64,000 bases of DNA, taken from contig OY987229.1 of NCBI GenBank assembly GCA_963920705.1, positions 18,915,728 to 18,979,727 on the forward strand, in the 5' to 3' direction. Position 1 is the first letter of the stretch, and the number at the start of each line of letters is the position of its first letter. Below the pieces are notes generated by a model. It was not told where the DNA came from and did no database searches. It worked only from the letters and a program-made list of their open reading frames with translations. This DNA is from Odiellus spinosus (lineage: Eukaryota > Arthropoda > Arachnida > Opiliones > Phalangiidae). Both the position numbers and the translations under genes were made by a program. Positions 9 through 63,931 of the stretch are shown in pieces.

Positions 9-830
9 CATTCCACCTTGTACGTAAGAGTCCAATAAGGGCATGCCTTCTTTTCTTATACCTTCTACTGTCTATATAAATTTAATAGAGATTAATTTTT
101 CTAACACCATTTTAGCTTCTACATTCTACCCGAGGTATATAATAACCCCCTTCGGGGGGAAGTATGAAAGCCCCTATACTACCAATGCTAAAAATCACGA
201 ACAACAAGAGCCCGCTGCTGACTATCTAGGCCACTAGCTCGCGCTGGACTTCTCAATGTCGCTACTCTAGTAAATGGTCTTTGTATAAACAAGACGGCTC
301 GATTTGTGTTTAGAACTTCCTGTCTCAGGAGTCAGGCTGTCTGCTAAAATGGAGTCGAAGGCTGACTTCAGCTCGCGAGTTCCGGAAGTGTGCGTAGGGA
401 AAATTTAGTGAGGTTCAAAATGGTGTAACTATTTTTTGGGAGTAAAGCGGTGTGTCGATCCGCCGCGATTTACGCCGGGCACTTGTTGTTCGTCGATTTT
501 GCCTACCTTTCATACTTCCCCCCGAAGGGGGTTATTATATACCTCTGATTCTACTCACTTTCTGGCAATCGTCGTCCAAATCTTTCATCTTCTTATCTAT
601 ATTCAAAAGATTACCCCGTCCTTAAACTAAGCCGTCTCTTGAATGTGGATCTTAATTTGCATATTTTTCAGAAATTATAAAAACTTACCAATAACCTCTT
701 TCATAGTAGGGTCGTATCGCGTTAGCAAGTACTTGCATATTGGTAGGCTAAAGGCTGGGGGATTAGACTCTGTACTGACCGTAAATAAGTACAGAGCAAA
801 AAGCAAAACCACGAACGTTATAGGTGACAT
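9..830 (-). CDS. MX1, Group II micro-exon secreted protein (partial, 3' part off left edge)
   Basis: Exons seen: 689-830, 559-596 and 9-71; later exons lie beyond the window. Exon 1 encodes a signal peptide (starts MSPITFVVLLFALYLF), a mature start with one cysteine (SLPICKYLL), and ends in phase 1 at a GTAAG donor. Exon 2 (38 nt) reads DKKMKDLDDDCQK and ends at GTGAGT. Exon 3 (63 nt) reads from TVEGIRK to YVQGGM and matches the 60-nt exon of MX5 and MX7 in position and pattern. All phases join in frame. The intron between exons 2 and 3 carries an inserted element (130-546). Unknown function; product probably secreted. Exon calls rest on splice motifs and agreement with paralogues. Confidence 0.72.
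130..546. mobile_element. Foldback MITE, 7-bp TSD, family CCGAGG/CAGAGG
   Basis: Near-perfect terminal inverted repeats of about 40 bp (GAGGTATATAATAACCCCC at the left, its complement at the right). The target duplication attctac is at 123-129 and 547-553. It has no coding capacity and sits in intron 2 of MX1, with its right duplication about 5 bp from the GTGAGT donor. It belongs with the other 7-bp-duplication elements in this window. Confidence 0.85.
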
Positions 831-1113
831 TTTCTGGAAGAATTAACTATTTTTGCGAGGGAAAACGGAGGTTATTTTATAGCAAAAACAATAGCTACTT
901 TTATTACAATGTTATCTGACTTCATCTAAAATTTCCCGCTATTATTATAGTTAATGGCGGTTATTATTATATTTGGGATAAGGTTTTTAGATTTATTTAG
1001 TGCCAATATAATTTTATTGATAAACTTGTCATTTGCAACCATTACTACCTTCATTTGATAATTCGGGATATTTTTAAGGTTATTGTAAATTGCATTTTAT
1101 TTCTTTCATTCAT

Positions 1114-1396
1114 GAAATATATCCTAATGATTTTAAAAATTAAAATTAGATCCAAATTTCACTGATCTCTCCCTCCAGCCAATCGTGTAACGCCTGGCCT
1201 TCCAACGAACAAAATACTCGCTATGTCGAGATTATAGCGCGAGATTTTATAACTAACGACGAACGTGGCGCACGACAAAGAGCATGCCACGAGTATTTTG
1301 TTCGCTGGAAGGCAGGGCGTCACACGATTGGCTGGCGGGAAATATCTTTGAAATTTGGCTCTATTTTGATTTTTAAAATCATTGGGATTTATTTCC
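1114..1396. mobile_element. Foldback element with ~110-bp inverted arms
   Basis: The left arm (from GAAATATATCCTAATG through CCAGCCAATCGTG to CAAAATACTCG) is repeated inverted on the right, around a loop of about 60 bp. It is absent from the matching place in duplication copy 2 (near 5100), so it inserted after the duplication or was lost there. I see no clear target duplication. Confidence 0.7.
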
Positions 1397-1696
1397 CGAA
1401 TAATTAATAGAAGAATCCATAAAAAAATCTCTTAAGTTTCCTCTTCACCCTCCCTTTAAATATAATTAAAACAATTACGATTTTCGAAACTCCCACGTCA
1501 GTTTCGTCATAACGAAGTTCTACTGTCTAGGATAATTTTCAAAAATATTTAATTAAATATTCTCTTAATTAGAATTAAAGTATAATACACTATCAATAGA
1601 AATTAAGGCGAATATGTCTAAAATTAAAATAAATGGAACGAAATTGAATTTAAATAATATTTTTAATTAGTTCAATTCTTTCTTGCATGATTTATT

Positions 1697-2666
1697 TTAC
1701 CCAGCAAGCTTTCCAAAACATCCCTACAAGAAATAGGTTTTTGTAATTAAAATAACTTTTAATTAAGATTAATTTTTATCTTACCATAATACCCTGCACT
1801 TTCATAGCTTCGCCGGCCATCTGTTAAAGAAGCGAAAGCCTAATTAAAATCTAATACGACAAGTTTGAATTGTTTTAGACATTAGTTTTAGAATATCTTA
1901 CCTTCATATTCGCGGCGCAACACTGTGATGAAAGTTAATTTAATCAAATTCTCGATTAATTAATTAATCTGCAGAGTAAAATATTTGAAATAAATAAATA
2001 AACCATATACCTTCTTCAAATCCTTGTCACTCTGAAAATTTCAAACGTAAATTTAGATTAAAATTAGGAATATAAGCACTGATACTTAAAGCATTCGATA
2101 TCATTCTTACATTATATTCCTTGCAGTTTTTCTCGAACTTTGGCACAAATGGCTCTAATTTCTGTAATAATATAAAAATTTAACTATCCGTAATTGCAAA
2201 TATACGTGTTACCCTGGTTGTGAGGTCGGAATGTTACTTCTCTAAAATTCGCTTACTGATTTGCATTCGGCGTCCATTTTAGCCATTATCTCCTTCTTCT
2301 TCGCCTGGCCTATAATTAAGTTAACCAATTAAACGAATAATTGTATTTTGCAATTAGCACCTTTTGATATATATCAGTTATATATTAAGGTGAAATCTTT
2401 ATGAAATTTCTAATAACATTTGATTGGTCGCTGACCCTTATACGCGAAGAAATTCAGGATCTCTAAGAATCCAGCTATTATATCCAAGCAAAATTTGGTA
2501 CCAGAACTTGTTCCTCGAGCAGAAAGATAGATATTTATATGATAAAAAAGCATTCTGTACCTTCGGGTCCACACATTTTGTCGATATTTTCTTTAGTGCA
2601 TTCTAAGCCTGCACTGACCAAAGCAACTAGAGCGACTAGGAAAATTGCGGTTAATAAAACCTTCAT
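1697..2666 (-). CDS. MX2, Group I micro-exon secreted cysteine protein
   Basis: Seven exons: 2561-2666, 2257-2309, 2111-2161, 2011-2031, 1902-1922, 1785-1820 and 1697-1723 (106, 53, 51, 21, 21, 36 and 27 nt), giving 104 residues. Exon 1 is a signal peptide (MKVLLTAIFLVALVALVSAG) followed by C-x8-C and ends in phase 1; later exons join in phase 0. Cysteines fall at AECKS (exon 2), KNCKEY (exon 3), CCAANMK (exon 5) and GCFGKLAG-stop (exon 7). Donors and acceptors are canonical. It is the duplicate partner of MX4, with identical exon sizes except the last. TATAAGTA lies at 2745-2752. Function unknown. Confidence 0.85.
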
Positions 2667-4240
2667 TTTTATCTTCTGATAGCGGTGGCGGTTTTGAATT
2701 CTTAATCAAAGGAACTGATAAAGATCTCGGTATTAACACTAGATACTTATACTAAAAAATTATACATCTTAATTGTTGCTTGGTAGTTGGTACTACCTGG
2801 TTTCTTTGAAAACATAGCCTGAACAAATATTAAATTAACATACTTATCGAAGTACGAGTTGTTTCACAATCTAGCGATTAATGGTACTCGACTCTAATAA
2901 TAGATAATTACATTTTACGACCAAACGAAGTTGTTTAAATACGAATATTTTGCAATCTTTATAATTATGAGTATCTGACGCGTATTTGCTTTATTTTTCA
3001 AAGAATTTTATTCAAAAAAAAAAAAAAAAAAAATATTAGTAGCTAAATTTCAGAAACTCTCGTAAGGAGTTCCAAGATTTTAATTTACTTACCATCAAAA
3101 GAGGTTTAGCTGGATTCATGGAGATATCCTTAATTATAAGGAATAGCAACCAATAATATTGATCATGGAGATCCTGCATTCTCCATATAAGAGCCACCAA
3201 TCAATGTCATTGGACGCTAGTTCTTATATGGGGAGTTCTGGTGATCACCAGGAATCGATAAAAAAATCAATTGGTTTTAGGTTGCATTCTCCCTCTAACT
3301 GCATCAATTGGTGATATACGCTTCAAATTTTATTTTTTTACTTGATATAATTAGCCTACACTATCTACATGATGATTAAAAGGGTGTACAACTTAACAGC
3401 GTTCCCCTAAACTGGGGTCCCTGACATTCTCGAGAACTTTCGAGCCAAGGCCCTTCTCCAGTCGATAATGATAATGTTTTGCCATCATTAGTAGATCTGG
3501 GCTATAATCTTTGATATACACCTGACTAAATATTAATTCACGACGATTAAAAGTTTCAAATATGGTTTAATTCGACTCTAATTGACTTGTTTTTAGCAAA
3601 ACGGGGATAAAAAATCCCGAATATTCACGAGTTGGCACGAGAGTGTTTTATCAGGGTAAACTTAAATTTAAATATGGTAATAGTCTGGTCATTATAAAGC
3701 TTTTGAATGAAAACTCGCGTATGAAAAACGATCGCAAGTTCTAGGTTAAATTTAAGCACCGTTATGACGTCACGCACATAGATAATTTATGTTTCCTGAT
3801 TAAATTTTATTCAAAGAGAATACTGAACAGGAGTTTGTAGAAGATATGGCTTTTCGAAAAATATTGCGTGATAGTGAATAAATTATTAAGGGAGTATTAC
3901 GTGGTGTTATTCTAAAACTTGGAGATTTTTTTAGCAAGTCCTAATTAGTTAACAACATCGTTATTTGGTGGTGGGCTATTAACAGGATTTGAACCCCGAA
4001 TTCGGCAATTGTAGCCTGACGAGCTCGTGACCTCTTGACATTTTTTAGGACTTCAGAGAGATTTTGAGATTTCAAATTTATTTTTATTTCTCATAGAGAA
4101 CGAATAGAGATTAAAATTTTGACTGTCGAATTAATGAATTAGATTTTATTTTTAAGAAATGTTTATTTATAGACAATATTGTTTCTTTAAAAAAATATGA
4201 AAGTTGATTACACGTATGGATCGTAACCACATAATGAAAT
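2667..4240. other. Spacer between MX2 and MX3, no gene seen
   Basis: AT-rich and matched by 6754-8115 in the second duplication copy. A remnant at about 3105-3297 shares its right end (GGTTGCATTCTCCCT) and interior with the TTAA-flanked foldback family. Near 3965-4030 the minus strand has a short tRNA-like T-arm (GGTTCAAATCC) without a full cloverleaf. I found no exons with good splice sites. Confidence 0.5.
2745..2752 (-). promoter_or_regulatory. TATA box of MX2
   Basis: TATAAGTA on the minus strand, about 80 bp upstream of the ATG; MX4 has TATAAATA at the equivalent place. Confidence 0.6.
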
Positions 4241-4837
4241 TTAAAAACTGATAGAAGTTGAATTCGCAAGGTGTTTTTCGCATTCCTTAGCCTCTAACGA
4301 TCTGACACATTTTTCAAACATTCCTAAATACCAAAATTTAATATTAATATTCGAATTATAAAATGAACAATTTTTTTCCTATAGTTCAGTTAAACACTAA
4401 TCATCGCGTATTCGTGATCAGCCATGATCTAATTAAATTTAAAAAAATGTTAATTATATTAAATTTAACGTGAAATTAAAGTTAAATCTAACCGGAGCCA
4501 TCCTTCTGCAGTATTGTACTTTCGTTTTGAAATCGGACTGGAAACGAAAGTAAAATTAATTCAACAAATGTAGGCTTATCTAATTTGCGTAAACAATTAA
4601 GATAAATACTTTGCCATTCTCAAGATATTCATCAGCAATGGGATAAATTGGTTTAATTTTATACACGGCCTAGACATTAATACGCATATTCTTCAGAAAT
4701 TAAACACCTTACCAATAGTCTCTTTCATAGTAGGGTACTTGCCTTCATGGTAGGCTAAAGGCCGGGAAATTAGATTGTGTACTGACCATAAATAAGTACA
4801 TAGCAAAAAGCAAAATTAAGGAAGTTATAGGTGACAT
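4241..4837 (-). pseudogene. MX3, chimeric Group II locus made by the duplication
   Basis: Exon 1 (4713-4837) is a copy of MX1 exon 1; exons 4610-4669 (60 nt, from AVYKIK to LENGK), 4493-4505 (13 nt) and 4241-4323 are copies of MX5 exons 3-5. No Group II exon 2 lies between them, and only 43 nt separate the two halves. Exon 1 is 17 nt shorter than MX1's and its frame closes early (FSLP-stop). It ends in phase 2 whereas the next exon needs phase 0, so no intact product is predicted. Its last exon lacks the early stop of MX5 and could read on (GMFEKCVRSLEAKECEK). Probably non-functional. Confidence 0.7.
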
Positions 4838-5352: not shown

Positions 5353-6753
5353 TTAATCTTTCTTTGTCAAACATTCCTACAAGAAATTAATTTTTTGTAA
5401 TTAAAATCACTTTTAGTTAAGGCTATTTTTAATCGTACCTGAGCACCAGACACTTCCTTAACGTCGTTTAACAGCTGTTGAAGAAACGAAAACCTAATTA
5501 AAATCTAATACGCCTAATTAAAATTCTTTTAGACATGAATTTTTGAATCTTACCGCAATTTTCGCGGCGCAACACTGTGATGAAAGTTAATTTAATCAAA
5601 TTCTCGATTAATTATAATATATATTAAAATATTTGGAATAAATAAACCGTATACCTTCTCCACGTTCTTGTCAGTCTGAAAATTTCAAACGTTAATTTAG
5701 ATTTAAATTAGTAATATAAATACTAAAACTTAAAGATTCGATATCATTCTTACATTGTAATCGTCGCAGATTTTCTTGCACCTTGGCACAAATGGCTCTA
5801 ATTTCTGTAATTATATAAAATTTAACTATCGGTAATCGCAAATATACAAATACATTTAACATTAAAAGGAAATGCCTTCCATTAAAATAAATGTAGCTTA
5901 TAAACTCAGACCAGAGAAATTTCTAAAAACCTAAGAATAATATTCCCGATTCGCTCTCTCATACGCTATCCTCAAAATTATTAGCTTTACTAACCCTAAA
6001 AAAAATTTAGCAAGTTAACTGAATATTAGGGCTCCTGCTTGTCTATCAATATTGTAAGATAGCCCTCCTAATGCTCTATCGTTCGATAGTATGGAAACAA
6101 TTGCTCATTACACGTTAATTAGATGAAACGAATCAATCCATGAAGTAGCAGTTTTTTCTAAAAATAATCTAGCATTATTCTTAACCATGGAACATAATTT
6201 GAATATTTCTAATTAGAATCAATTTTAATTTCGGTCCCCTAAAATAATATGTACGATTTAGATGGTTTCGTCAAAATATTGCCTTCATTATGGTTCGGTC
6301 GACCTATTTTTAGTTTTAAATCGGATGGTAAGCTCCAAAAACTTTAATATCATTCTTTGGGGTTATTTTAAGACCGTTAAAAAAATACTGAACACTACCC
6401 CTGTTTATTACTACTCCTAGGTGTTACCCTGGTTATGAGGTCGAAATGTTAATTCTCTAAAATTCGCTTACTGATTTGCATTCGGCGTTCATTTTTTCGA
6501 ACTTTGCCTTCTTCATCGCCTGGCCTTTAATTAAGTTAACCAATTAAACGAATAATTATATTCTGAAGTCGCCATGTTCTTATATATTTCAGATATATAT
6601 TTCCTCTAGTAGAAAGCTCGGTATTTATGATAAAAAGTATTCTATACCTTCGGGTCCACACATTTTATCGACTTTTTCTTTATTGCATTCGAAGCCTGCA
6701 CTGGCCAAAGCAACTAGAGCGACTAGGAAAATAGCGGCTAGTAGAACCTTCAT
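5353..6753 (-). CDS. MX4, Group I micro-exon secreted cysteine protein
   Basis: Seven exons: 6648-6753, 6472-6524, 5754-5804, 5655-5675, 5554-5574, 5439-5474 and 5353-5376 (106, 53, 51, 21, 21, 36 and 24 nt), giving 103 residues. The signal peptide MKVLLAAIFLVALVALASAG is followed by CNKEKVDKMC. Later pieces include NAECKS, RCKKICDDYN, TDKNVEK, CCAAKIA, LLNDVKEVSGAQ and ECLTKKD-stop. Phases are 1 after exon 1 and 0 elsewhere. Intron 2 is enlarged by an insertion absent from MX2. TATAAATA is at 6830-6837. Unknown function; probably secreted and disulfide-bonded. Confidence 0.86.
5848..6420. mobile_element. Unclassified insertion in MX4 intron 2
   Basis: The intron matches MX2 intron 2 on both sides (CGCAAATATAC, then GTGTTACCCTGG). 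The intervening stretch of about 573 bp is missing from MX2. It shows no inverted termini, open frame or clear target duplication that I can see. The type is unknown. Confidence 0.5.
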
Positions 6754-8115
6754 TTTTATCTTCTGATAGCGGTGGGGTTTAGAATTGATAATCAAAGGAA
6801 CTGATAAAGATCTTGGTATTAACACTAGATATTTATACTAAAACATTATACACCTTAATTGTTGCTTGATAGTTGGTACTATCTGGTTTTTTCCAAAACA
6901 CTCGCCTGAACAAATATTAAATTTAACATACTTATCGATATCCGAGTTGTTCCACAGTCTAGCGATTAATGGTACTCGACTCTAATAATAGACAATTAGA
7001 TTTTACGACCAAACGAAGTTGTTCAAACACGAATATTTTGCAATATTTAAAATTATGAGTGTATGGCGTGTATTTGCTTTATTTGTCAAAGAATCTTATT
7101 CCCAAAAAGCTAGGAGTATATATAGCTGAATTTCAGAAGCTCTCTCTCATAAGGAGTTCCGAGGTTTAAATTTACATATTTACTTGTAAATTTAAAAGCT
7201 GTTAGATTTTTAGCTCCCTTTAATTTTAGCCTTTAATATCTATGATGATTAAAAGGGTATTCAACTTAACAGCGGTCCCCTAAACAGGGGTCCCCGACTT
7301 TTACGAGACCTTTCGAGCCGAGGCTCTTCTTCAGTCGATAATGATAATCATTTTTTGCCATCATTAGTATCTGGGTTATAATCTTTGATGTACACCTGAC
7401 TAAATATTAATGCGTGACGAATACTAGTTTCAAATATGGTTTAATTCGACTCTTTGACTGGTTTATACCAAAACGGGGATAAATAAATCAGGACTAGGCA
7501 CGAGAATCTAAAGTAATTATACTTAAATGTTGTAATTACAAAACTTTTGAATGAAAATTCGAGCATGAAATATGAATGATTGGAAGGTAATTAAAGCATC
7601 GTCATGACGTCATACACATGGAACAGTATTATTCCCTGTATAAATATTTAAAGAGAATATTGAACTGGAGTTTGAAGATGAGGAATTTCAAAAAATGTTG
7701 ATAGTTTAATTAAAAAATATTAATAGTGAATAAATTACGTGGTTGTTATTCTCAAACTGGGAATTTTTCCTTAATTCACAAGGTCAAAATTAGTTAAAAC
7801 CATCAAGGGAGGGTAGGTAACAATTAATACAGCAATTTTACACTGCCGTGCTCGTACATCCGCACACTCGTAGCCTTTGGACATATTTTAGGATTTTAAG
7901 TGAGATTAAAAGCTATTAGGAATTTTACTTACTTATTTATCATAGAGAACGAACGTGAAAATTAAAATAGATTTTTTTAAATGTTTATTTATAGACAAAA
8001 TAATTTCTTTAAAAAAATATAAAAGTTGGTTACACGTATAGATAACCACATTATGAAATTTAAAAAACTGATAGTTCAATTCGCAAGGTGTTTCTGCATT
8101 CCTCAACCTCTAACG
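6754..8115. other. Spacer between MX4 and MX5, no gene seen
   Basis: Apart from the MX4 promoter region, this is the second copy of the spacer at 2667-4240. AT-rich, with no convincing exon, RNA gene or inverted element. Confidence 0.5.
6830..6837 (-). promoter_or_regulatory. TATA box of MX4
   Basis: TATAAATA on the minus strand, about 77 bp upstream of the ATG. Confidence 0.6.
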
Positions 8116-8958
8116 CTATCTGACACATTTTTCAAACATTCCTAAATACCAAAATTAAATATTAATATTCGAATTATAAAATAAACAATTTTTTTATATA
8201 GTTCAGTTAAACACTAACCATCGCGTATTCGTGATCAGCCATGATCTAATTAAATTTAAAAAAATGTTAATTATAATATTAAATTTAACGTGAAATTAAA
8301 AATCTAACCGGAGCCATCCTTCTGCAGTACTGTACTTTCGTTTTAAAATCGGACTGAAAATGAAAGTAAAATTAATTCAACAAAAGTAGGCTTATCTACT
8401 TTGCTTAAACAATTAAGATAAATACCTTGCCATTCTCAAGATATTCATCAGCAATGGGATAAATTGGTTTAATTTTATACACGGCCTAGAAATTAAGTAA
8501 AAGTTAACTAATTAACTGTAGAATTAGTGATTAGATTAAAATCTTACTTGGCGACATTCGTTGCCCAGAAATAATAATACTAAAACTAAAATAAAAATAA
8601 AATATAAATTTCGAATAGAACTATTTCAATTTTATACTCTTGTTAAAACAAAAGGAATTGGTTATCACTACTTTTATCCCTATTAGGCTTAGCTTTGTGT
8701 ATTAGTACGTCTTAGCCTTGTCCCTTTTACCAACTCCTCTTGATTAACATAAGTATCTCAACTAATTCGCGCTAATCGAATTGATATAAAAAATATAATT
8801 ACAAACGTACCGTAAGTGTTCTTGAAAGTGTGGTAACTATCAATGAAATCGACGCAGCCTCTCATCAATTCTTCTCTGCTCCTTCCTTGCACCAGAAATA
8901 AGCCCGCTGAAATGGCTAACGTAACAATTAAGAAGGTCTTGCAATTAAAATTAAACAT
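8116..8958 (-). CDS. MX5, Group II micro-exon secreted protein
   Basis: Exons: 8811-8958, 8548-8579, 8426-8485, 8309-8321 and 8116-8141 (148, 32, 60, 13 and 26 nt), giving about 92 residues. Exon 1 carries the signal peptide (MFNFNCKTFLIVTLAISAGL) and MRGCVDF. Exon 2 ends GNECRQ, exon 3 runs AVYKIK to LENGK, exon 4 is KDGS, and the last exon is GMFEKCVR-stop. Exon 3 aligns with MX7 exon 3 (IYPIA shared). The exon 2 acceptor and the 13-nt exon are the least certain calls. The gene lacks the 24/27/27-nt exons of MX6 and MX7. TATAAATA is at 9022-9029. Confidence 0.65.
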
Positions 8959-10128: not shown

Positions 10129-12021
10129 TTAGTCTTCTTCGGAGTGACCAAATTGTTTGGCCAAAGCTATTAAACAGTCCTGCAAAGAAAATTAAGTTAT
10201 AATTAACTTTTAAATACTTAGTTTATGATCAAATTCTAAAGGATCTTACCCAAGCTGGCTTATGTTTTATGAAAAGCTTTAAAAATCAAATCAGTTACTA
10301 TTATACCAATGTTAATCAATACGCAAATTTAACTTTAATGTTTAACTACGTAAACTTACCTCCTGCCAAGCTTCGGAATTGCACGCCTTAAAATTTATTG
10401 TTTCAATTAAAAATTTAAAATTATGATTATAAATATATTAATTTATAGCTTACAGCTTCATTCTCGGTTTGAGTGCGCTGATAATAATTAAAAAAATCGT
10501 TTAAATTTTCAAAGTAATTGTGTTATGGCTTTGAAATTACAGGCGTAGCTTTAAGATATTCAGGAAAATTTTATAAAAGTTTTTGAAGTTTTGTCATTGG
10601 TCGCTAGTCTTTATACGGGGGAGTTCAGGATTTCTCCATGAATCCAGCTAAGCCTATTTTGATGAAAAGTTCAGTTTTTTTACTGCCTATTTAAACGATA
10701 AGGAATCAATAAAAAATCACTTGTTATTAGGTTGCATTCTCCCTTTTAAACCAGTTAAACGCTGTTATCAAGTAGTATCCTAATTCCTGAAACTCCTAAG
10801 GCGCGCCTTTAGTGTCAGCAGAAGCCAATGAAACCCTCCTTTGAAGTCTACTACTCTAATGTTCCATATAGCGCTCCTCTCTGTATGGGTAAAATTTCCA
10901 ATTTTACGAGATCGGAGGGGTCCTACTTCATACCCCCTGTCTACGGAAAATTGGAAATTCTCTCTCTCCACAAACGACGACGTTTTTTTGACGAACTCCG
11001 AGGCTGCTAGAGATATTCGCTCGACGAACTCCCGTTCCGAAAATATCTACCGTTAGGAGGCGTACGAATCGCGCCTTTTGAGAATAACCCATACAGAGAG
11101 GGGTAGACAAGACCCGGGAGTAATAGACTTCAAAGGAGGGTTTCATCGGCTTCTGGTGTCAGTAAAGTGCAATAAAATTGTAATTACAGGTTTGCTAATG
11201 TGTTCCTCTATTATAGGGAAACATTCGTCGCTCATTTTCAAATATTTCTAAATCAAAATGAAGTATATAATCAGAACCCAAAAAAATTAATTCTTCCACG
11301 AATAGATATAGTTTGTAACGTGAGTCTTAAGGCGTGTTTAGACTATATGAAAATTCTCTCTAATACCCTCTTCAGACGAGGCGTAATTAGCCGTGGTTTA
11401 ATCAGATTTAACCGAGGTTTACATAGCCTTTTCAGTTCAATAAACCTCGGTTAATTTTGAATAAACCATGGTTAAATCTGATTAAACCGGCTAGTTACGC
11501 CTCGTCTGAAAAGGGTATAACCATCAATAAGATTAAGTTACGTATAGTCTGAAAGCGGCTTAAACAAAGTCATTCAAAAGTCTGGAAAATTAACGCCACA
11601 ACTTAAGTATGACCTTTGAGGTTACATTTCGCCTAAAGGTACTACTCTATTTTCACTCACGAGAGCCGCAGTTTGCATAATTTAATAGATAGTATGGATT
11701 TACAATGATCCAAATCCTCTTGAACACAAGTACCGATTTAATTTTAAATATATTTATTAATTACTCACGTCTTGGCAATCATCTTCGAGCATAGTTTTAA
11801 TCATAGCTAATAAAAACCAAAAAAAAGTAAGAGTTGCAATTTCAGGAATATTTAGATTTAAAAAGATGAAGTTTTATCTTACAATGGTGCGATTTAAGTT
11901 CTGGAAATTTTTCAATCCCTTTAACACATTTTTTCAAAACATCCGGTGGTAATTCGATCGAATACGCAAACGCTATAATAGTTACCAATAATATTACGAC
12001 CTGCACTTGTATTTTTCCCAT
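10129..12021 (-). CDS. MX6, Group II micro-exon secreted protein
   Basis: Exons: 11883-12021, 11769-11806, 10454-10477, 10360-10386, 10250-10276 and 10129-10179 (139, 38, 24, 27, 27 and 51 nt), giving 101 residues. Signal peptide MGKIQVQVVILLVTIIAFAY, then LKKCVKG. Exon 2 ends EDDCQD, then RTQTENEA, ACNSEAWQE, LFIKHKPAW and DCLIALAKQFG up to EED-stop. The last four exons align one to one with MX7 (LFIK and CL..LA.QFG conserved). I could not find the 60-nt exon; intron 2 (1.3 kb) is full of inserted repeats that may have destroyed it. TTAAATAG near 12104 may serve as the TATA box. Confidence 0.78.
10598..10745. repeat. Remnant of the TTAA-type foldback family
   Basis: It shares CATTGGTCGCTAG, CCATGAATCCAGCTAAGCC and GGTTGCATTCTCCC with the right half of the copies at 24046 and 48048. 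The left half is missing. It lies in MX6 intron 2. Confidence 0.6.
10819..11155. mobile_element. MITE, 7-bp TSD, family CAGAAGCC (copy 1)
   Basis: 337 bp, with termini CAGAAGCC[A/G]ATGAAACCC inverted at both ends and target duplication gtgtcag at both flanks. The arms extend far inward (CTTTGAAGTCTA, then CCCATACAGAGAGG). It lies in MX6 intron 2. Short open frames in it (MKPSFEVYYSN-like) recur in every copy and are not genes. Confidence 0.92.
11366..11515. mobile_element. TA-flanked foldback MITE (family CCCTYTTCAGACG)
   Basis: 150 bp, ends CCCTCTTCAGACGAGGCG and its complement, flanked by TA on both sides as in Tc1/mariner-type MITEs. Related pieces lie at 52003-52125 and 59360-59451. It is in MX6 intron 2. 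Confidence 0.75.
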
Positions 12022-21290: not shown

Positions 21291-21447
21291 CGTTACGGTC
21301 TTAAAATGGCCGTAGCTTTTCTCTATTATTACCCTTTTGTTCTGTTTTATTCAAAATGAAGATATAGCGAATAAGTCGTGTAAAATTTCAGTAACATTTA
21401 AAAACTTCAATTTATTGAAACATTACACATAATATTTCCTTTTAAAT

Positions 21448-24480: not shown

Positions 24481-25187
24481 TTAAATATATACTATCACAC
24501 TAGCTATTACTCGTTAAAAGTGACGTGCTTTAAAAATTAATAGAAATTTATTTAGTCCGTTAATTTACTTAATTTAATAATAATTATAATTATAATTGAA
24601 ATTCCTCTTATTTGGTTTCAGTTCTTTACAAAATTACCTTTGGTTGCGACCACAATTGTTCGAAACGGTGTTTTCCTTTACTTAAAGATAAATAAGTTTA
24701 GTTTCGTAAGTTAAATTAATTTTAACTCTAGTTAAACGTCGCAAAAAAAAAAACATAACCTCTCTTAAATCATTAAACCTAAATCACCAAGCCTAAATAC
24801 ATAGATAATTATATATTTGATTATTCTGAGCGATTTACCATAGGCTATATACTACTTTTTACCTATTTGACGACGTCATAGCGTTGCCAAAAATCAGAAA
24901 TTCATACTTTTATATTTAGTTAAAACGGAGACGTTGGACCTTCCAAAACATATTTTAAGCTCAAAATCAATTTTCGAAATCTGAAATACAAATATTAAAT
25001 CCAAAATCCAATATAAAATCACTTTAGTAGATTTCCAAATTTCCCAAAATCCAACAAAATCCATCACTTTATTTCAAAATCCGACTAAACCATCAATTGA
25101 TTAAATATTTTATTTCAAAGTGTAAATACAAATATTTTCTTATTTCGTTCGCAATCTTACGAGGTGTTGTAGCATCATTTAGATACA

Positions 25188-49963: not shown

Positions 49964-52615
49964 CTATTCTTTTTTATCTCCACCGCCACCACCCCATTTG
50001 GGCAAGCAATCCTGTAAAATTAAATAGGGAATACATTACGTAAACATATTCGTCTTATTGTAATTTAAAAGTTTGTGTCTAAACTTACCCCAAAATCTTC
50101 GCGAGTTTTTTTCGTAAGCTGTGGAATAAATGGAACGTTAATTAAAATGTAGGCGCGTTTAATTTTATAGTTACTTCATTACCTCTTTAAGAGTTTCGCA
50201 TTTCTGTTTACAAACAAAACAAATGTTAATTAATCTTGTTTTATAGCAAGACGATATAATTAACTCACTTTAGCTTCATCGGTTTCCTACAAATTAAAAA
50301 TAATTCCTTTTAGTTTGATATGACTGGAATATTAATTGGTTTCTTAATTATATTAGTTACCCCGCAAGCCGTTTGTAGTTTTGGTCCCATCTCGACTTTC
50401 ATGGCATCCCATTTCTGGAATTTAATTGAAAAATAGTTCATATTATCACATTAAGTTTATAGGGTTTATTTAAGCTAAGTTCACACTATCGTATTTCTAT
50501 CGATAAAATCAAACCTTTTAAGCGCTATTTGTTCGCGTACCATCTTTATATTAACCGTTTTATCTTAAGGTTGTTGAAGCCTAATCAGTTTGAAACTGGT
50601 TCCCGAAGCAGTTTCGAGAAATCGATTCAAAACGATTTAAAAAAAAAATAAAAAACGTTTTCCGTTCACGCGACTGCATAGTAACGTTTTGAATCCGTTT
50701 CAATCGATTCCGAAGTCTAGTATGATCGCGGCTTTAATAAACTGTTTCTGATATCGTAAATTATTATAGTTAATTTTTATATAGTTAATCATTATGTTGT
50801 GTGTAAAGAATTAGTGGACTCGCAGCGTACGACTGTAGTTTTTGTAAGAAAGTGGGCTCATATTCGCGCGCAATTTTCCTACCTCCAACACTTATTATGC
50901 CATAAATACGACGAATAATAAAACAAAAAAAGCTTAGAGGACCTGCGCTCTTCACATTTCTAGCGGCAAAAATATATTCTAACATCCTGCGCCTTTAGAA
51001 TTTCGGGGGTCATAATTGAACAAGTTTTGAACATAGTAATACTATCCAACTATTTGAATACGATACCGTTAAACAATCGGCGCTCATTTTAGACTTGATT
51101 TTTTCCTCCATCTTTTTGCCTATAATAAGAAAATCACAATTAGTATACGATATAATTACAAGCACGCATTTTTATTTACTCTATTACAACATTTTGTAAA
51201 GGACCAATTAATAAGGCCACCGCGTAGGGGATATTTAGTCCCAAAATGACTGGTCCCATCAAACGATTTGATATATATAGACTCTTGGTCCCATCCTGCA
51301 TGGCTAACCCATGCAGGATTGATTTGGGAAATATGTATGTGAAAAATCTAGACGAGATTCTAAATGCCCTACAGGAATTTTGTCAAACACGTACAACAAA
51401 ATTGTACGTGATAAATTTGAATTATATTTACTTTTGTCAGCGTCTTTATTGCAAGCAAATTTGACAATCATTTCGCAAGACATCTTTGGCATGCATTCTT
51501 TCTGCGATTACAAAATTATATTTAAACATTATAATAATTATTATTATTATTTTCTCTAGTACTTACTCCCATTTTTTCCATGTTTTCTTTTCCCATCTAA
51601 AAATTTTTTTTTTTTTTTTTTTTTTTTTTGTAATTGTAAAATCTTAGTGTATAGTCAATGGTTTAACGATAGTTAATTATAGGCTTACCTTCTTCAAAGC
51701 CTGGCAAGTCTACGTAGAGTTAAATATACATTTATATATAAATGTTTATTTGTAAAAAAAATATTTTGTCTTATATTTAAAATCTTACTTCATCCTGTTG
51801 GTCTTTTTTCTGTTAATTAACAACTATATTTAGCTGATACGAAATTTAGTTTTAAGTTTAGTTTTATCTTACCGCGCAAATTTCGGTTTTTTGCTTGGTA
51901 ATTTCCTCTTTCAAACCTTCATATTTCTAAAAAAATATACATTTCACGTTAAATTAAGCACCACCGACCACTAAACATCTTCGACCACTAATAACCTCGT
52001 AATACCCGTAATTAGCCGTGGTTTAATGAGATTTAACTGAGTTCAATAAACCTCGGTTAATTTTGAATAAACCATGGTTAAATCTGATTAAACCAGCTAG
52101 TTACGCCTCGTCTGAAAAGTGTATAACCCTTCCATTCTCATCGCCCTTTCAACTTTGATCCTTAATTGTTGACTTTCACCAAATTAAATTTCGGCAATTA
52201 TTGCTTTTATACGACCTTTTACTTCAACCGTTTTGACCTTTTTACTCTTTTGATCCGTATTCGCTTTTTCTTGAACCTTATTACCATTAAATTGCTTCGT
52301 CCCCTATTCATCGTGACCCTTATAGCACCCTCGTAACCCTTCGAGGCAAACATGTTCACCTATTACGTACCGTTTTGCACTCGGGAGTCATTTTTTCTAC
52401 CCACTTTTTGCCCATTTCTTTACCTATGATGAAAAAAATGCGAATGGAATCGGTGTTTCAAAGTGAAGTTCTATTTTCATTAACTTTTCTATACCTTTAT
52501 CTCCGCAAGAGAACTCTATCATTTTGTCGCAGGGCATTCCATGGCCGTAAACTTCGACGCAAATTAAAGCTAGGCCCAAAGCCAATACGCAGACGCTAAT
52601 TATTGACGTTGTCAT
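49964..52615 (-). CDS. MX18, two-domain Group I fusion protein, 13 exons
   Basis: Exons: 52495-52615, 52371-52423, 51873-51926, 51789-51809, 51689-51709, 51567-51596, 51432-51501, 51067-51119, 50361-50414, 50269-50286, 50183-50203, 50089-50118 and 49964-50011, giving 197 residues, all phases consistent. Domain 1: signal peptide MTTSIISVCVLALGLALICV, CDKMIEFSC, TPECKT, TEICA, TCQALKK. Exon 7 (70 nt) joins a normal last-exon motif (KECMPKM) directly to an exon-1 mature motif (CEMIVKFAC) without a signal peptide or stop and ends in phase 1, as exon 1 does. Domain 2: SADCLT, QTACG, ETDEAK, KCETLKE, LTKKTREDFG and DCLPKWGGGGG...KKE-stop. It therefore has two six-cysteine domains behind one signal peptide. 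Confidence 0.84.
50470..50737. mobile_element. Foldback of the GTTCACACTAG family in MX18 intron 8
   Basis: The left end TTAAGCTAAGTTCACACTA is mirrored on the right (AGTATGATCGCGGCTTTAA). The arms contain CGATTxAAACCG-like strings. Confidence 0.6.
52003..52125. mobile_element. TA-type foldback MITE remnant in MX18 intron 2
   Basis: Related to 11366-11515 (TAATTAGCCGTGGTTTAAT and complement). The left end is truncated; the right end is GTCTGAAAAGTGTATA. Confidence 0.65.
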
Positions 52616-54517: not shown

Positions 54518-55659
54518 TTAATTGTCTTTTTTCATTCCTTTAAAGCATTCCTGAAAATTTTCAATTTCAAATTTAGTATTTATTAGAAATGATAATCGAT
54601 GAAGTAACGATTTACATACCTTTAATACCTTCAACTTTTCGCAAGCCTGTACGAAAATTTAATTAAGTTAATCCACTCCATTTATACATTACATTACATT
54701 AGTTTTATAAAAAATTTAGTTTTATTTTTGAAAACTAATTCATTTAACATTATCTTACCTCTTCAGATTTTTCACTGTCTTCTTTCTATAAATATTAATC
54801 AAGAAATACTAGTTAATGGAATATAATATCCATTATATTCTATTCTTTTTAAATTTAAGTTTAAAAAAAAAATATTAAATGACGCAAACTAATAAATATA
54901 ATACTTACGAATATCTTGCAAGCCGCTTCTTTAGCTTCGGGAATTTTCTGAAATTAAAATAATTTATTCGTGATTTCAAATGTGTAATAAAATCCCACAC
55001 GCTTTTCCTTTCCCCTTTACGATGCTAGTGATTTACACGCTTTAAATTGGAGAAATAATAATTCATTGTTGAATTTTTATTTTACTGGTGTGCGGGAGAA
55101 GTTGGAAAAAAAATTTCCTCGGTTAATTATCGAAGTTGCGAAAGTAGACTCATGTTTAATTCAAAAGGACTTAATTTCTGAAGCCAATGAAAGTTACTAT
55201 TTAAATTAGTGATTATTTATAACGCGCTTTTAAGAGATAAATTGGTTCACCAGCCATTTTTTTTATGATATTTCATCGGCATCAGCAACAAAATATTCTA
55301 GAGAATTTTCTGTCTTAAAATTTCTTCGAATTTAGGTTTAGCGACTTTGATATATTAACTGCAAAATTACTGGGGAAACTTTGGTAAATTTTGATACGGT
55401 TTTTACGCGTATATTTTAAGTCTAAATAGATTAAAAATAACTTGTTATCGGAGTCTAGTATTCCTTTTAAAACGTAATTTTATACCGTTTTGCAAGATTC
55501 GTCGGTTATCTTTTCCATAATTTTTTTCATCTTTTCGTCTGATCCATCTGAGCACCATTTTTCCAACTTCTCCTTGCCGCATTTTCTTTTTCCATCGCCA
55601 CCAGCTTGCACGGCCACGATGACCACCATCAGAGCGACAATAATTAAAGCAGTCTTCAT
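54518..55659 (-). CDS. MX19, Group Ib micro-exon secreted cysteine protein
   Basis: Exons: 55486-55659, 54909-54947, 54759-54785, 54620-54646 and 54518-54550 (174, 39, 27, 27 and 33 nt), giving 99 residues, all junctions in phase 0. Exon 1 combines the usual exons 1 and 2: signal peptide MKTALIIVALMVVIVAVQA, CGKEKLEKWC and then DESCKT at the donor. Later pieces: EAACKIF, KEDSEKSEE, ACEKLKVLK and ECFKGMKKDN-stop. The six-cysteine order is kept. First of four adjacent paralogues with near-identical signal peptides. TATATAAG at 55706-55713. Confidence 0.87.
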
Positions 55660-57164: not shown

Positions 57165-58402
57165 TTAATCTTTCTTCTTTCCTAAGCACTCCTGATAATT
57201 TTTTAATTTCAAATTTAGTATTTATTAGAAATGATTATCGATGAAGTAACGATTTCCATACCTTTACTTGCATGATCTTGTCGCAAGCCTATGCAAAAAT
57301 TTAATTAAGTTAATGCACTCCATTTATTAATTACGATACATTAGTTTTATAAAATTAACATTATCTTACCTCTTTAATTTTTTCATTGTCATCATTCTAT
57401 AAATATTAGTGAAAAAATACTAATTAATATCTGTTAATTTTTCTATATTTATACAAAAATTAAAAGAATTATCTTTTAAGTTCAATAACAGTTTTACAAT
57501 CCCATTATCCTATTTATTTTTGGCAATTTTAAATAATATTACATTCAAATTAATAAATATAATACTTACGAATATCTTGCAAGTCGCTTCTTTAGCTGCA
57601 GGAACTTTCTGAAATTCAAATAATTTATTTAAATACGCGGTTTTCGGGATTTCAAATATGTAATAAAATCCCACACGCTTTTCCTTTCCCTTTTCCAAAT
57701 GCTAGCGATTTATTCCGTTGGATACCCTAAAAGATGGTGGTTAATTTAAGAGCACGCTTCAAATGGTGTGCGGGTGAAGTTTATTAATCCGCCATATATT
57801 TTAAAATAACGTTGGAAAAATGGTATTTTTCATCGATTTAGACTTAAAAACTTTATCAAATTTGGCCGAAGGCTTTCGCGGTTAATTATCAAAGTTGCGA
57901 AAGTAGACTCCAAGAAAGTTCATATTTAATTCAAAGGGACTCAATTGCTGAAGCCAATGAAAGTTAATCTTTAAAATGGTGGTTAGAAATAACGCGCGTT
58001 TAAGAGATAAATTGGTTCACTAGCCATTTTTTACGATATTTCATTTGCTTCAGCAACAAAATTTTCTAGAGAATTTTCTGTCTTAAAATATCTTTTGATT
58101 TAGGCTTATCGACTTCGATAAATTAACTGCAAAATTACTTGGGAAACTTCGGTAAATTTTGATACTGTTTTTACGCGTATATTTTAAGTTCAAAAATAAC
58201 TTGTTATCCCTTAATAACGTAATTTTATACCGCTTTGCAAGGTTCGTCCATCTTTTCCACCTTTTTTTTTTATCCATTCTTCTCCTGTCTTTCCGCACAT
58301 GATTCCCAACGCCTCCTTGTCGCATTGTTTTTGACCGCCCCCACCAGCTTGCACGGTCACGATGACCACCATCAGGGCGACAATAATTAAAGCAGTCTTC
58401 AT
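57165..58402 (-). CDS. MX20, Group Ib member with a frame problem in exon 1
   Basis: Exons: 58231-58402, 57570-57608, 57370-57396, 57262-57288 and 57165-57191 (172, 39, 27, 27 and 27 nt). Signal peptide MKTALIIVALMVVIVTVQA, CDKEALGIMC, then a run of ten A. Downstream of the run the expected EKMDEPCKA lies in another frame, and exon 1 is not a multiple of three as it is in MX19, 21 and 22. Later exons are intact: EATCKIF, NDDNEKIKE, ACDKIMQVK and ECLGKKKD-stop. Either a one-base homopolymer length change (real, or a sequencing or assembly error) or a young pseudogene. All splice sites and the promoter are kept. Confidence 0.75.
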
Positions 58403-58586: not shown

Positions 58587-59025
58587 CTATTTTCTTTCCT
58601 CGCCATCTTTCTTCTCGTCATCTTTCTTCTCGTCATCTTTCTTCTCGTCATCTTTCTCATCATCTTTTCCTTTCGCGTCTGTTTTGCATTTCTGATAATT
58701 TTTTAAATAAAATATAAAGTGATTAGTAGAAATGATAATCGGTTAAGTATAGCGATTTTCATACCTCCCATATTGGGCTAGTCATCGCTGCGCAAGCCTA
58801 TGTAAAAAATTTAATTTAATTAATGCACTACATTTATTAATTTAAATTCGTTAGTTTTATAAAAACAAATTTTAAATTATTTCAACATTTTTAAAATTAA
58901 TAATTATCTTACCTCTTCAAATTTCTTATTATCGGCATTCTATACATATTGGTGAAAAAAATATTTGAATTAATTAATATCTTGTTTAACGGCACATTTT
59001 CTACAAATTATTTAAGCTTTTTGTG

Positions 59026-59064
<39 letters not shown>

Positions 59065-59830
59065 GTAACTCAACGCTATTAATGTTTTCTAAATTCATAA
59101 ACAGCTAGGATTTATCATGTTGACAACTTGAAATAAAAAATTACGCAAATTAATTATTATACAACTTACGAAAATCGCGCAACCGGCCGTTTTCAATTTA
59201 TCAAATTCCTGAAATTAAAATATTTAAATTTTCGTGAGTTCAAATGTGTAGTAAAATTCAGCGCTTTTTCTTCCGCCTTCCCCGATGCTAGTTAGAGCTA
59301 GTAACCTATAAGATCGCTCTTAATTTAAGGTCACCCTTTAAATTTTAGAAACGCAAACCCAAATTAGCCGGTTTAATCAGATATGGCCGTGGTTTAAACC
59401 TCGGTTAAATCTGATTAAACCACGGCTTAATTACCCTCCTCTGAAGAGGGTATAAGGCGCTTTCCGATAATGCGATCCTCGTAACACTCGCAAAATCGTG
59501 TTTGTAGTTGTTACATAAGGGCAACAGCGTAATGGCGGTCATAGTTGAAATTTTCTTTTACCGCGTGGTATTCGAGTTAAGTAAAATTTTAAAATCAAAA
59601 GTAATTTTATATACATCTTTGCATTCAGCGGGCATTTTTTTCATCCAGCCCTTGCCTTTTCCTTTGCCTTTGCCTTCGCCTTTGCCTTTGCCTTTGCCTT
59701 CGCCACCCCCTTTCTTTTCTCCGCACCATTTTTTCAGTTTATTCTCTTGGCATTTTCCTTTTCCTTCGCCACCAGCTTGCACGGCCACGATGACCACCAT
59801 CAGAGCGACAATAACTAAAGCAGTCTTCAT
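58587..59830 (-). CDS. MX21, Group Ib protein with GK-rich insert and acidic repeat tail
   Basis: Exons: 59615-59830, 59170-59208, 58913-58939, 58765-58797 and 58587-58691 (216, 39, 27, 33 and 105 nt), giving 139 residues. Signal peptide MKTALVIVALMVVIVAVQA, CQENKLKKWC, a GKGKGEGKGK-type insert, then PAECKD at the donor. Later pieces: AGCAIF, NADNKKFEE, ACAAMTSPIWE and KCKTDAKGKDDE followed by tandem KKDDE repeats to EERK-stop. The first exon is 42 nt longer than MX19's through GGCAAA-type hexamer expansion; the tail comes from a 15-bp repeat. The 125-residue antisense frame here is a shadow. TATATAAG at 59877-59884. Confidence 0.87.
59360..59451. mobile_element. TA-type foldback MITE remnant in MX21 intron 1
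   Basis: Contains AACCTCGGTTAAATCTGATT and ends CTCTGAAGAGGGTATA; related to 11366-11515. Confidence 0.6.
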
Positions 59831-59876
59831 TTTGATTACGAATGAAAAAGTGATTTACTTCAGAGACTGCTTTACG

Positions 59877-59884
59877 CTTATATA
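59877..59884 (-). promoter_or_regulatory. TATA box of MX21
   Basis: TATATAAG about 50 bp upstream of the ATG, same block as MX19. Confidence 0.7.
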
Positions 59885-61379: not shown

Positions 61380-62765
61380 CTATTTTCTATCTTCGTCACT
61401 TTTCTTCTCGCCTTCTTTCTTCTCACCTTTTTTAGCTTTCATATCTGCTATACATTTCTAATATTTTTTTTTTAAATTAAATAATTAGTATTTAATAGTA
61501 ATGATAATCGATAAAGTATAGCCATTTCCATACCTCCCATACAGGACTCTTCATCGCTGCGCAAGCCTATGTAAAAATTAAATTTAATATATTTATTAAT
61601 TTAATAAGATATACGTTACTTTTATAAAAACGAATTTTTCATTCAACATTTTTAAAAATAATAATTATCTTACATCTTCAACTTTCGCATTATCGGCATT
61701 CTATAAATAATAGTAAAAAAAAATATTTCAACTAATTAATACGTTGATAAACGGTTAACTTTTCTTAAAATTGGACTCCTAGCTATACGATTTTTGTAAA
61801 AAAAAAAAAAAAAAAAAAAAACTATAACTCAACGCTATATTATGCAAATTAATAAATATAAAACTTACGAATATCGCGCAGGCCGCCGCTCTCAGCTTTT
61901 TCTTTTCCTGAAATTAGAATATTTAATTAGGCGATTTTTCGTGATTTCAAATGTGTAATAAAATTCAACGATTTTTTTTCCCCGTTAGTGCTAGTGATAC
62001 GTTCCGTTGGGTACCCTAAAAGATCGTGCTTAATTAAAGACACTCTTTAAATTTTAGAAACTAAACCCAAGCACATGTAAGGCGCTTTCCTATAATCCTA
62101 TCTTCGTTCTCGGAGCCCATTGTTGAACTTTTTTTTTTTACCGGTGTTCGAGGGATGTTGGAAGATTAGTTAAACATTGCGTATTAATCTGCCATTAATT
62201 TTAAAATGACTTATGGGAGAAGCCGATGAAACCCTCCTTTGAAGTCTACTACTCTAATGTTCCATATAGCGCTCCTCTCTGTATGCGTAAAATTTCCAAT
62301 TTTACGAGATCGGAGGGGTCTAACTTCATACCCCCCTGTCTACGGAAAATTGGAAATTCTCTCTCTCCACAAACGACGCGCGTTTTTTGGACGAACTCCA
62401 AGGCTGCTAGAGATATTCGCTCGACGAACTCTCGCTCCGAAAATATCTACCGTTAGGAGGCGTACGAATCGCGCTTTTTGAAACTAACCCATACAGAGAG
62501 GGGTAGACAAGACCCGGGAGTAATAGACTTCAAAGGAGGGTTTCATCGGCTTCTGCTTATGCCTAGAACTTCAATAGTAATTTTATACCTCTTTGCAATC
62601 CTCGGGCAAATTTTTCCATCTGCCTTTGCCTTTGCCTTCGCCACCCTCTTTCTTTTCTCCGCACTTTTTTTTCAGTTTATTCTCATCGCATTTTCCTCTT
62701 CCACCACCAGCTTGCACGGCCACGATGACCACCATCAGAGCGACAATAACTAAAGCAGTCTTCAT
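61380..62765 (-). CDS. MX22, Group Ib micro-exon secreted cysteine protein
   Basis: Exons: 62589-62765, 61869-61907, 61674-61700, 61534-61566 and 61380-61457 (177, 39, 27, 33 and 78 nt), giving 117 residues. Signal peptide MKTALVIVALMVVIVAVQA, CDENKLKKKC, short GKGKG insert, PEDCKE. Later pieces: AAACAIF, NADNAKVED, ACAAMKSPVWE and KCIADMKAKKGEKK...DEDRK-stop. Closest to MX21; the acidic/lysine tail is shorter. The MITE at 62217-62555 ends 33 bp from the exon 1 donor. TATATAAG at 62812-62819. Confidence 0.88.
62217..62555. mobile_element. MITE, family CAGAAGCC (copy 6)
   Basis: 339 bp; left terminus GAGAAGCC, right GGCTTCTG; flanks cttatgg and cttatgc (6 of 7). In MX22 intron 1, close to the donor. 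Confidence 0.88.
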
Positions 62766-62811
62766 TTTGATTACGAATGTAAAAGTGATTTACTTCAGAG
62801 ACTGCTTTACG

Positions 62812-62819
62812 CTTATATA
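62812..62819 (-). promoter_or_regulatory. TATA box of MX22
   Basis: TATATAAG about 50 bp upstream of the ATG, same block as MX19. Confidence 0.7.
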
Positions 62820-63570
62820 ATGAGATTCGAGATGGCGAAACGATAATGTGAACAAATATAATGTGGTTTTTCCCTATTTTCGTCCTAGCGCGTTCACCAC
62901 TTTCTCGTAGTACGGACTTTAACCGAACATTTAACTATCTAATGGTTAATTATTCCATTTCGAGTAATGTTTGGTTCGCGTTTTTGCTAACTTTATTTGC
63001 GAAACAAAATTATAATGGGGTAAATTTTAATGAGGAGCACACGATAGGGGAGTATTTTTACATGTATGAATTCGCAGAAAGATTTTGAGATTTAGGTTTA
63101 CATAAATTAAAGAGTTATTTGAGATATGACAGAAAATTATAGATTTCCACACTTCACAGAAAGTTTGATTTACATATTCACACTAGATCTAGTACTGAAA
63201 CCTTTTTTAGACTAAAATATTTGGGTTCTTTTGATTGGTCTAATTTTATACTTCACTAAACTTCAAACTTAACTAAACTTTAGTAATTATTTTAATTTTT
63301 TTACTTTAATAATTTTACTTTAATAATTTTAAAAATCTTCTCTTTAAAAAAACAATTAGTGAGGCTAAATTAAAATAAATTAAATGAAATATCTGCTTAA
63401 TTATAGAAATATTTATGCATTGAAATTATATTTTAGGCTTAGTTAAGTTTAAAATTAAATTTTAAATGGTATATGAAATATAAGAGTTTCAATACTGTAG
63501 GAAAAATCAATACACACATTGTTTGATTTAGTTAACTATTAACTTTATTCATTTCTTAAATGCAAGCAAG
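62820..63570. other. Spacer between MX22 and MX23
   Basis: The first 200 bp are homologous to the DNA upstream of MX19 and MX21. The rest is very AT-rich with no feature recognised. Confidence 0.45.
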
Positions 63571-63931
63571 TTACTGTCCACGGAGTTCAGCTCCTATGTC
63601 TCTAAGGCAGGTTATCGCCGCCTACAAACAGAATTAAATATTACTTAATTCTGAATAATTAAAATAACAATTAGATATTTAATCTAACCTCGTTTGCAAG
63701 AAGATTTTGTAGACTGCTCCGCAATGGTTGTATAACCTGTCGTTTCATCGAAATTAAAACCAATTTAATCATTAAAACTTAAAGATCGCGTATACGAACC
63801 TGGTTTTCGAAACTGGTTGTAGCCTTTTATACAAAAAGAAACATTTACATTATTAACAATTATTAATTATCCTTAATTCATTTTAATAAGAATTAATAAT
63901 TTCAACTTACCGTGTTAATGTTTTGGTCAGT
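63571..63931 (-). CDS. MX23, 3' exons of a micro-exon gene running off the right edge
   Basis: Exons: 63911-63931 (21 nt, TDQNINT), 63800-63823 (24 nt, ATTSFENQ), 63689-63736 (48 nt, from VIQPLRS to LLANE) and 63571-63621 (51 nt, AAITCLRDIGAELRGQ-stop). All have canonical sites and phase 0. The last exon resembles those of MX6 and MX7 (CL..L or CLRTLAEQ), suggesting Group II. The signal-peptide exon would lie beyond 64000. Confidence 0.72.

Follow-up and report, generated by a model that had tools for sequence, protein, structure and literature searches.

A tandem array of micro-exon genes lies on chromosome 5 of the harvestman Odiellus spinosus, in a stretch of 64,000 nucleotides of contig OY987229.1 (positions 18,915,728 to 18,979,727; hereafter the window). 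Our analysis confirms that this array is real. What it holds can most safely be described as a new family of small cysteine proteins, locally expanded, probably secreted and encoded by micro-exon genes. The family may be special to the harvestman lineage. A first-pass annotation, made from the DNA letters, had proposed 23 such loci on the minus strand between positions 9 and 63931. That span agrees with ours, and we rebuilt the 23 loci as 22 gene models and one evident pseudogene (4837). The array is nevertheless larger than the window: we count 28 loci over about 81 kb, every one on the minus strand, of which 23 touch the window and five lie past its right edge (80667, 78535, 76124, 72580 and 66577). 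The overall interpretation given in that annotation is partly supported. Start positions serve as locus names throughout; negative coordinates lie in the left flank, and those above 64,000 lie to the right of the window.

Evidence for the genes

ATGs followed by a hydrophobic N-terminus number 24 on the minus strand of the window and one on the plus strand, which bears out the earlier description of signal-like first exons. They correspond to 20 of the 23 loci (three genes are counted twice through a second in-frame ATG, and 49245 is no gene). A splice-chain search without fixed phases already returned recurring internal exons of 53, 54, 51, 21 and 30 nt. Of 27 starts tried with phases fixed, five of them outside the window, 26 received dynamic-programming chain scores of 12.4 to 51.3; pseudogene 4837 was the sole start without a good chain. 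Among the controls, no score exceeded 4.4 on the plus strand of the window (171 ATGs) or 5.8 on the plus strand of 40 kb of left flank (111 ATGs). Because the phase pattern and residue weights were fixed after the first genes had been inspected, the score is tuned to the family and favours its genes; controls were scored identically. Some chains entered the next gene (30296), and locus 65114 is absent from the 27 starts and scores nothing because its first exon exceeds the limit of the program.

A wider scan covered 264 kb. Here the minus strand gave 84 chains scoring at least 8 from 776 ATGs. Modelled genes contain all but eight of these chains: the partial gene 72580 accounts for one, three enter exons of 72580 or 52615, and four, at two places, have no explanation. 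On the plus strand, 783 ATGs gave six such chains, three belonging to a relative at -49190, two to a flank gene near 86258 and one, at -1754, to a hydrolase-like frame.

The final set holds 26 models with 175 exons, 4837 and 72580 being excluded. Ten models were adopted from the automatic chain, three of these with one exon added afterwards; in all, 142 of the 175 exons are present in the automatic chain and 11 of the 26 models are identical to it. The loci of the window are listed below, with the share of exons recovered by the automatic chain (chain) and exon lengths in nt.

63571..63931, minus: locus 65114, exons 4-7 (63931-63911, 63823-63800, 63736-63689, 63621-63571), hand-placed, chain 0/7; exon 1, outside the window on the same strand, has 307 nt and is N/Q/G-rich; the first three exons lie outside
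61380..62765, minus: gene 62765, 5 exons, exons 1 and 2 fused (177 nt), six cysteines, K/E-rich tail, chain 5/5
58587..59830, minus: gene 59830, 5 exons, fused exons 1 and 2 with a G/K-rich repeat, D/E/K-rich tail, chain 1/5, four by hand
57165..58402, minus: locus 58402, 5 exons, frame-shifted as modelled
54518..55659, minus: gene 55659, 5 exons, fused exons 1 and 2, six cysteines, chain 5/5
49964..52615, minus: gene 52615, 13 exons, two tandem six-cysteine domains, chain 11/13, exons 7 and 8 by hand
51501-51432, minus: exon 7 of gene 52615, linking domain 1 with domain 2
46222..47642, minus: gene 47642, 7 exons (136, 56, 54, 24, 21, 30, 36), chain 3/7
44129..45444, minus: gene 45444, 7 exons, G/K-rich tail, chain 4/7
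41404..42666, minus: gene 42666, 7 exons (121, 53, 54, 21, 21, 30, 51), chain 7/7
38630..39967, minus: gene 39967, 7 exons (133, 53, 54, 21, 21, 30, 63), chain 7/7
35267..37405, minus: gene 37405, 7 exons (130, 59, 54, 21, 21, 30, 21), chain 6/7
31531..33175, minus: gene 33175, 7 exons (103, 53, 54, 21, 21, 30, 30), chain 6/7
28948..30296, minus: gene 30296, 7 exons (109, 53, 54, 21, 21, 30, 24), chain 6/7
27498..28357, minus: gene 28357, 7 exons (115, 53, 54, 21, 21, 30, 27), chain 7/7
24894..27064, minus: gene 27064, 7 exons, the last (24980-24894) uncertain, chain 7/7
21448..23649, minus: gene 23649, 6 exons, last two fused, chain 4/6
18386..21295, no strand: 172-bp satellite, 16.9 copies with 94% matches, inside the array between genes 23649 and 16712
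13723..16712, minus: gene 16712, second subfamily, 7 exons (166, 38, 60, 24, 27, 27, 42), GC-AG intron after exon 2, chain 4/7
10129..12021, minus: gene 12021, second subfamily, 7 exons (139, 38, 60, 24, 27, 27, 51), chain 5/7
8103..8958, minus: gene 8958, second subfamily, 6 exons (148, 38, 60, 45, 27, 39), chain 5/6
5353..6753, minus: gene 6753, 7 exons (106, 53, 51, 21, 21, 36, 24), chain 7/7
4234..4837, minus: pseudogene 4837, stop in exon 1, blastn likeness to genes 830 and 8958
1697..2666, minus: gene 2666, 7 exons (106, 53, 51, 21, 21, 36, 27), chain 7/7
9..830, minus: gene 830, exons 1-3 (830-689, 596-559, 71-9), exons 4 and 5 past the window, chain 5/5

Exon-intron layout

Matching exon phases and sizes between loci were part of the first-pass description, and both are borne out by the models. 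GT-AG borders are found in 148 of the 149 introns and GC-AG borders in the remaining one; the introns span 54 to 1208 nt with a median of 86. Seventeen of the 26 modelled loci have seven exons, three have six, five have five and one has 13. The canonical order is a signal-peptide exon of 103-139 nt, then exons of 53, 54 or 51, 21, 21, and 30 or 36 nt, and a short last exon. Among the 123 internal exons, lengths of 21 nt (32 exons), 27 (12), 30 (11), 53 (11), 54 (10) and 51 (9) recur, and 67 are no longer than 36 nt. The length is divisible by three in 99; the remaining 24 are exon 2 or a fused junction exon. With 58402 left aside, 145 introns comprise 23 in phase 1, 122 in phase 0 and none in phase 2. 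The 25 first introns are in phase 1 in 22 cases and in phase 0 in the three genes with fused exons, while 119 of the 120 later introns are in phase 0. Internal exons other than exon 2 and the junction exon of 52615 are therefore multiples of three with phase-0 borders, so that skipping one would preserve the frame and could add variants.

Several loci vary this layout. The second subfamily (16712, 12021 and 8958) has internal exons of 38, 60, 24, 27 and 27 nt, two of which are fused in 8958. Exons 1 and 2 are fused in 62765, 59830, 58402 and 55659, and the last two in 23649; these variants are consistent with intron loss. In 52615, a 70-nt exon joins the end of domain 1 to the first cysteine motif of domain 2, with no signal peptide between them, and the locus is best read as a single two-domain gene of 13 exons.

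Frames are open across GT-AG or GC-AG junctions in 25 of the 28 loci. The first-pass description needs correction at two loci of the window. No chain was found for 4837, which has a stop in exon 1. Locus 58402, when modelled like its paralogues, carries a frame shift in exon 1; an open alternative exists through a weak added exon of 26 nt. Outside the window, 72580 is truncated and its last exons were not located.

Predicted proteins

The 25 proteins considered here, 58402 being excluded from all protein and divergence work, begin in every case with an N-terminus that a crude score rates as hydrophobic. We aligned 23 sequences (without 58402, 830, 65114 and the second domain of 52615). Three cysteine columns are invariant and a fourth is present in at least 90% of the sequences, so the shared cysteine pattern noted in the first pass is upheld. 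The spacing C-X8-C-X18-C-X18-C-X9-C-X17-C is exact in 42666, 39967, 33175 and 30296; in 37405, 28357 and domain 1 of 52615 one spacing is off by one or two residues, and the rest vary more. Mature parts carry four to eight cysteines, the two-domain gene aside. Simple residue propensities, a weak indication, lean towards helix in 23 of 25 mature parts, the exceptions being 65114 and 8958. Some linkers and tails are rich in K/G, D/E/K or N/Q/G. An attempt to derive disulphide pairing from joint cysteine loss in the alignment was abandoned, as the subfamilies contradict each other.

The family appears to be unrecognised, as had been claimed, with no convincing relative in Pfam, solved structures or 5.8 billion proteins. 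Eleven Pfam submissions gave nothing above the curated cut-offs; across the 23 aligned members the best E was 0.001, among 37 scattered weak families of which 25 were listed (the cut-off was compared for the first member). Solved structures gave best E values of 0.22 for one protein and 0.088 for a profile, both at chance level. A profile query against the 5.8 billion proteins yielded 771 candidates and none at E<=10. No description of such a family in arachnids stood among the matches listed from the open-licence literature.

Duplication, divergence and promoters

Local duplication within the array is indicated by its self-alignment and by the chimeric pseudogene 4837, in which blastn relates the 5' part to gene 830 (80% over 241) and the 3' part to gene 8958 (93% over 453). 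The ratio of nonsynonymous to synonymous change (dN/dS) of the mature parts is 0.62-1.62 across six close pairs, and signal peptides are more constrained than mature parts in three of the four pairs with a computable ratio. The 200 bases upstream are less diverged than the exons in four of seven pairs, most strongly in 59830/55659 (0.048 vs 0.337; gaps were uncounted in upstream divergence).

Of the 27 starts, 24 have a TATA-like box in the preceding 200 bases, although in two of these its distance is odd (-185 and -18). Taken by groups, the box is present in 16 of 18 against a background rate of 0.316. The element TCACGAA stands upstream of six of 27 starts and in five of 18 groups, against a background of 0.017, with a P value that is optimistic because the motif was chosen after inspection. 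GATA sites occur at 1.5 per 400 upstream bases against 1.2, and forkhead-like sites at 1.06 against 0.60.

Extent and surroundings of the array

We searched the assembly (443.07 Mb, 286 contigs) with seven proteins singly at E<=10 and obtained 36 matches: 20 of the proteins' own exons, 14 others in the same stretch of chromosome 5 and two elsewhere, with E at least 0.8. The 14 comprise 13 array loci and one plus-strand relative of gene 12021. This relative, at -49190, stands some 49 kb away from the array, and its exons in the automatic chain measure 139, 38, 60, 24, 27 and 51 nt. These searches were run exon by exon, and distant members elsewhere would escape them.

The array had also been described as uninterrupted by other gene types. 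No long open frame hinting at another gene was seen in the window, where no general gene finder was run; however, the satellite (about 2.9 kb), which belongs to no gene, and short repeats do intervene. The local GC skew changes at the satellite (18386-21295). We also saw a repeat bounded by inverted ends (GATGAAACCCTCCTTTGAAGTC, with 16 exact copies in 264 kb, and its complement, with 17) that resembles a short non-coding transposon. It occurs in introns and spacers, at about 62555-62217, 54204-53880, 22278-21941 and 11155-10817.

Outside the array, the left side has a sulfotransferase (Pfam E 1.6e-19) and a fragment of a HAD-type hydrolase (E 0.0012, below the cut-off), and the right side has Ig-domain exons (C1-set, above the cut-off) and EB-module exons. 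The flank from about -74900 to -73200 is taken up by a long and simple tandem repeat, many of whose frames are open. Further observations concern other parts of the genome. C17 (13.74 Mb) has nine mitochondrial cox1 matches, all with internal TGA codons, which are apparently nuclear mitochondrial copies. C15:11731779-11732501 has an intronless, receptor-like frame of 403 aa with a 7tm_6 match, the sole match at E<=0.001 in that search; we take it to be perhaps a gustatory-type receptor. In the mitochondrial contig (16,074 bases), trnL(UUR) sits next to nad1 and not between cox1 and cox2, an order that points away from insects and crustaceans; with the single 7tm_6 match, it speaks against an insect as the source of the DNA.

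Possible functions of the family

We think it fairly probable that the array encodes a tandem family of secreted, six-cysteine and probably helical harvestman proteins acting as an exocrine cocktail. We place their action outside the body because of the signal-like starts, the TATA promoters, the tandem turnover, the weak sequence constraint and analogy with other systems. The family would have grown through repeated local duplication and copy loss (birth and death) on chromosome 5. In most genes a TATA box precedes the predicted signal-peptide exon, and the mature domain is divided among several tiny exons. Cysteines of the core are retained, whereas the residues that separate them vary, as do the linkers and tails, which are charged or rich in glycine. 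The products may be released together from a mouthpart or foregut gland, from adhesive hairs of the pedipalp, or from a genital accessory gland. The secreted cocktail might bind partners or surfaces outside the cell, and frame-keeping skipping of symmetric exons could supply variants. The DNA itself shows the gene layout, the clustering, the cysteine pattern, the TATA boxes and traces of duplication; expression, secretion, fold, tissue and action of the products are what we infer from it. Harvestmen are free-living arachnids, and a parasite-host or plant-host role therefore does not follow.

Several points weigh against this account. The genes are known here from DNA sequence alone, and the positions of 33 of the 175 exons were chosen manually, with splice sites and paralogues as guides. 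The calling of signal peptides relied solely on a crude measure of hydrophobicity. Positive selection, sought by bootstrap in six pairs, was not demonstrated: the single dN/dS above 1 is non-significant (dN > dS in 179 of 200 bootstraps), and the other five pairs gave 15-75 of 200. Compared with introns (those of very different length were omitted), exons are more diverged in one of seven pairs (2666/6753, 0.202 vs 0.124), equally diverged in one (47642/45444) and less diverged in five. Since exons outpace introns in just one of the seven pairs, ordinary or relaxed constraint also fits. The upstream DNA is as diverged as the exons in one pair and more diverged in two. Finally, nothing points to a particular gland.

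Could these instead be antimicrobial or other immune peptides of the haemolymph or gut: cationic, disulphide-bonded, induced by infection and diversified against microbes? Tandem duplication with change is usual in such peptides, and net charge reaches +5 to +10 in seven of the 25 mature proteins, some with G/K-rich tails. There are also weak Pfam matches to peptide precursors, in one member each (Defensin_propep, E 0.014; Myticin-prepro, E 0.059). Yet net charge spans -7 to +10 and ten of the 25 proteins are acidic, both precursor matches sit among the 37 scattered weak families, and NF-kB-like sites are absent from 18 upstream stretches of 400 bases, in what is a low-power test (background 0.098 per stretch). 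We consider an immune role unlikely. A structural secretion such as a glue or sheath, in which linker and tail repeats would be mechanical and the six-cysteine domain would cross-link, strikes us as quite unlikely. The G/K-, D/E/K- and N/Q/G-rich stretches of some members fit it, as does a sub-threshold match (E 0.14) between locus 65114 and a glycine-rich protein family. The glandular adhesive hairs of harvestman pedipalps would also be in keeping with it, although no title on them stood among the literature matches listed. Against it, such stretches are missing from many members, and the copies are strongly dissimilar.

Reproductive secreted proteins often evolve fast, and the family might come from male accessory glands (seminal fluid or a nuptial gift) or be produced alongside the eggs. 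In Leiobunum harvestmen, nuptial secretions are made in penial accessory glands (PMC6131725). That study, however, measures free amino acids rather than proteins, its main text nowhere has the word Phalangiidae, and no sequence feature of the array indicates reproductive tissue; a reproductive role seems to us improbable. It is very improbable that the loci are decaying or chance splice-like sequence rather than working genes. Pseudogene 4837, the modelled frame shift of 58402 and the truncated 72580 do speak for some decay, but frames stay open across splice junctions at 25 of 28 loci, opposite-strand controls score far lower, and the cysteines are conserved.

Beyond the exocrine cocktail lies a broader idea that we put forward tentatively and regard as somewhat doubtful. 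The genes may represent an undescribed superfamily that gained its micro-exon architecture independently, with exons of about seven residues corresponding to single helical segments around cysteines. Symmetric splicing and shared promoters would then yield a changing secreted repertoire, and the layout would be untied to parasitism or gall-making.

Comparison with known micro-exon and secreted families

The first-pass annotation likened the array to schistosome micro-exon genes (MEGs) and aphid bicycle genes, a likeness that stands for gene layout but fails in several particulars. MEGs are described as having 10-20 very short exons and introns of 100 to nearly 5000 bp (PMC10526429). As described there, they share with the harvestman genes predicted secreted products and an abundance of very short internal exons, whose lengths are for the most part divisible by three; the comparison rests on layout, not sequences. 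MEGs also yield variants when central exons are alternatively spliced, which the symmetric exons of the harvestman genes would permit. The harvestman genes, in contrast, have five to seven exons (13 in one), a median intron of 86 nt and a commonest short exon of 21 rather than 15 nt. They also form one array, whereas MEGs are spread over eight chromosomes in another phylum.

Bicycle genes, reported from aphids, phylloxerids and coccids, average about 17 exons, and their internal exons are almost all in phase 2; their CYC motif is absent from some accepted homologues (PMC9168663). Both families show predicted signal sequences, fast-changing proteins, short internal exons and a layout more conserved than the sequence, but the harvestman genes use phases 1 and 0, have fewer exons and occur in an arachnid. 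The published bicycle classifier, re-implemented from its coefficients with a cut-off of 0.72, gave a top probability of 0.0004 over the 26 models. Intron phase and this classifier together rule out identity with bicycle genes as so described. The SSSGPs of the Hessian fly are small secreted families whose non-coding parts are reported to be more conserved than the coding parts (PMC2955719). Likened by description only, the harvestman family shows such conservation for introns in one of seven pairs and for upstream DNA in four of seven.

The best-known micro-exon families of secreted proteins are those of blood flukes and gall aphids, which are interpreted as host-manipulating effectors. A comparable layout in an animal that lives free, as a predator or scavenger, would uncouple the architecture from parasitism. 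It would also provide an independent system in which to ask why families of secreted, fast-changing proteins turn micro-exonic. For harvestmen, the array provides concrete candidate gland genes and suggests that ordinary gene prediction may miss genes of this kind.

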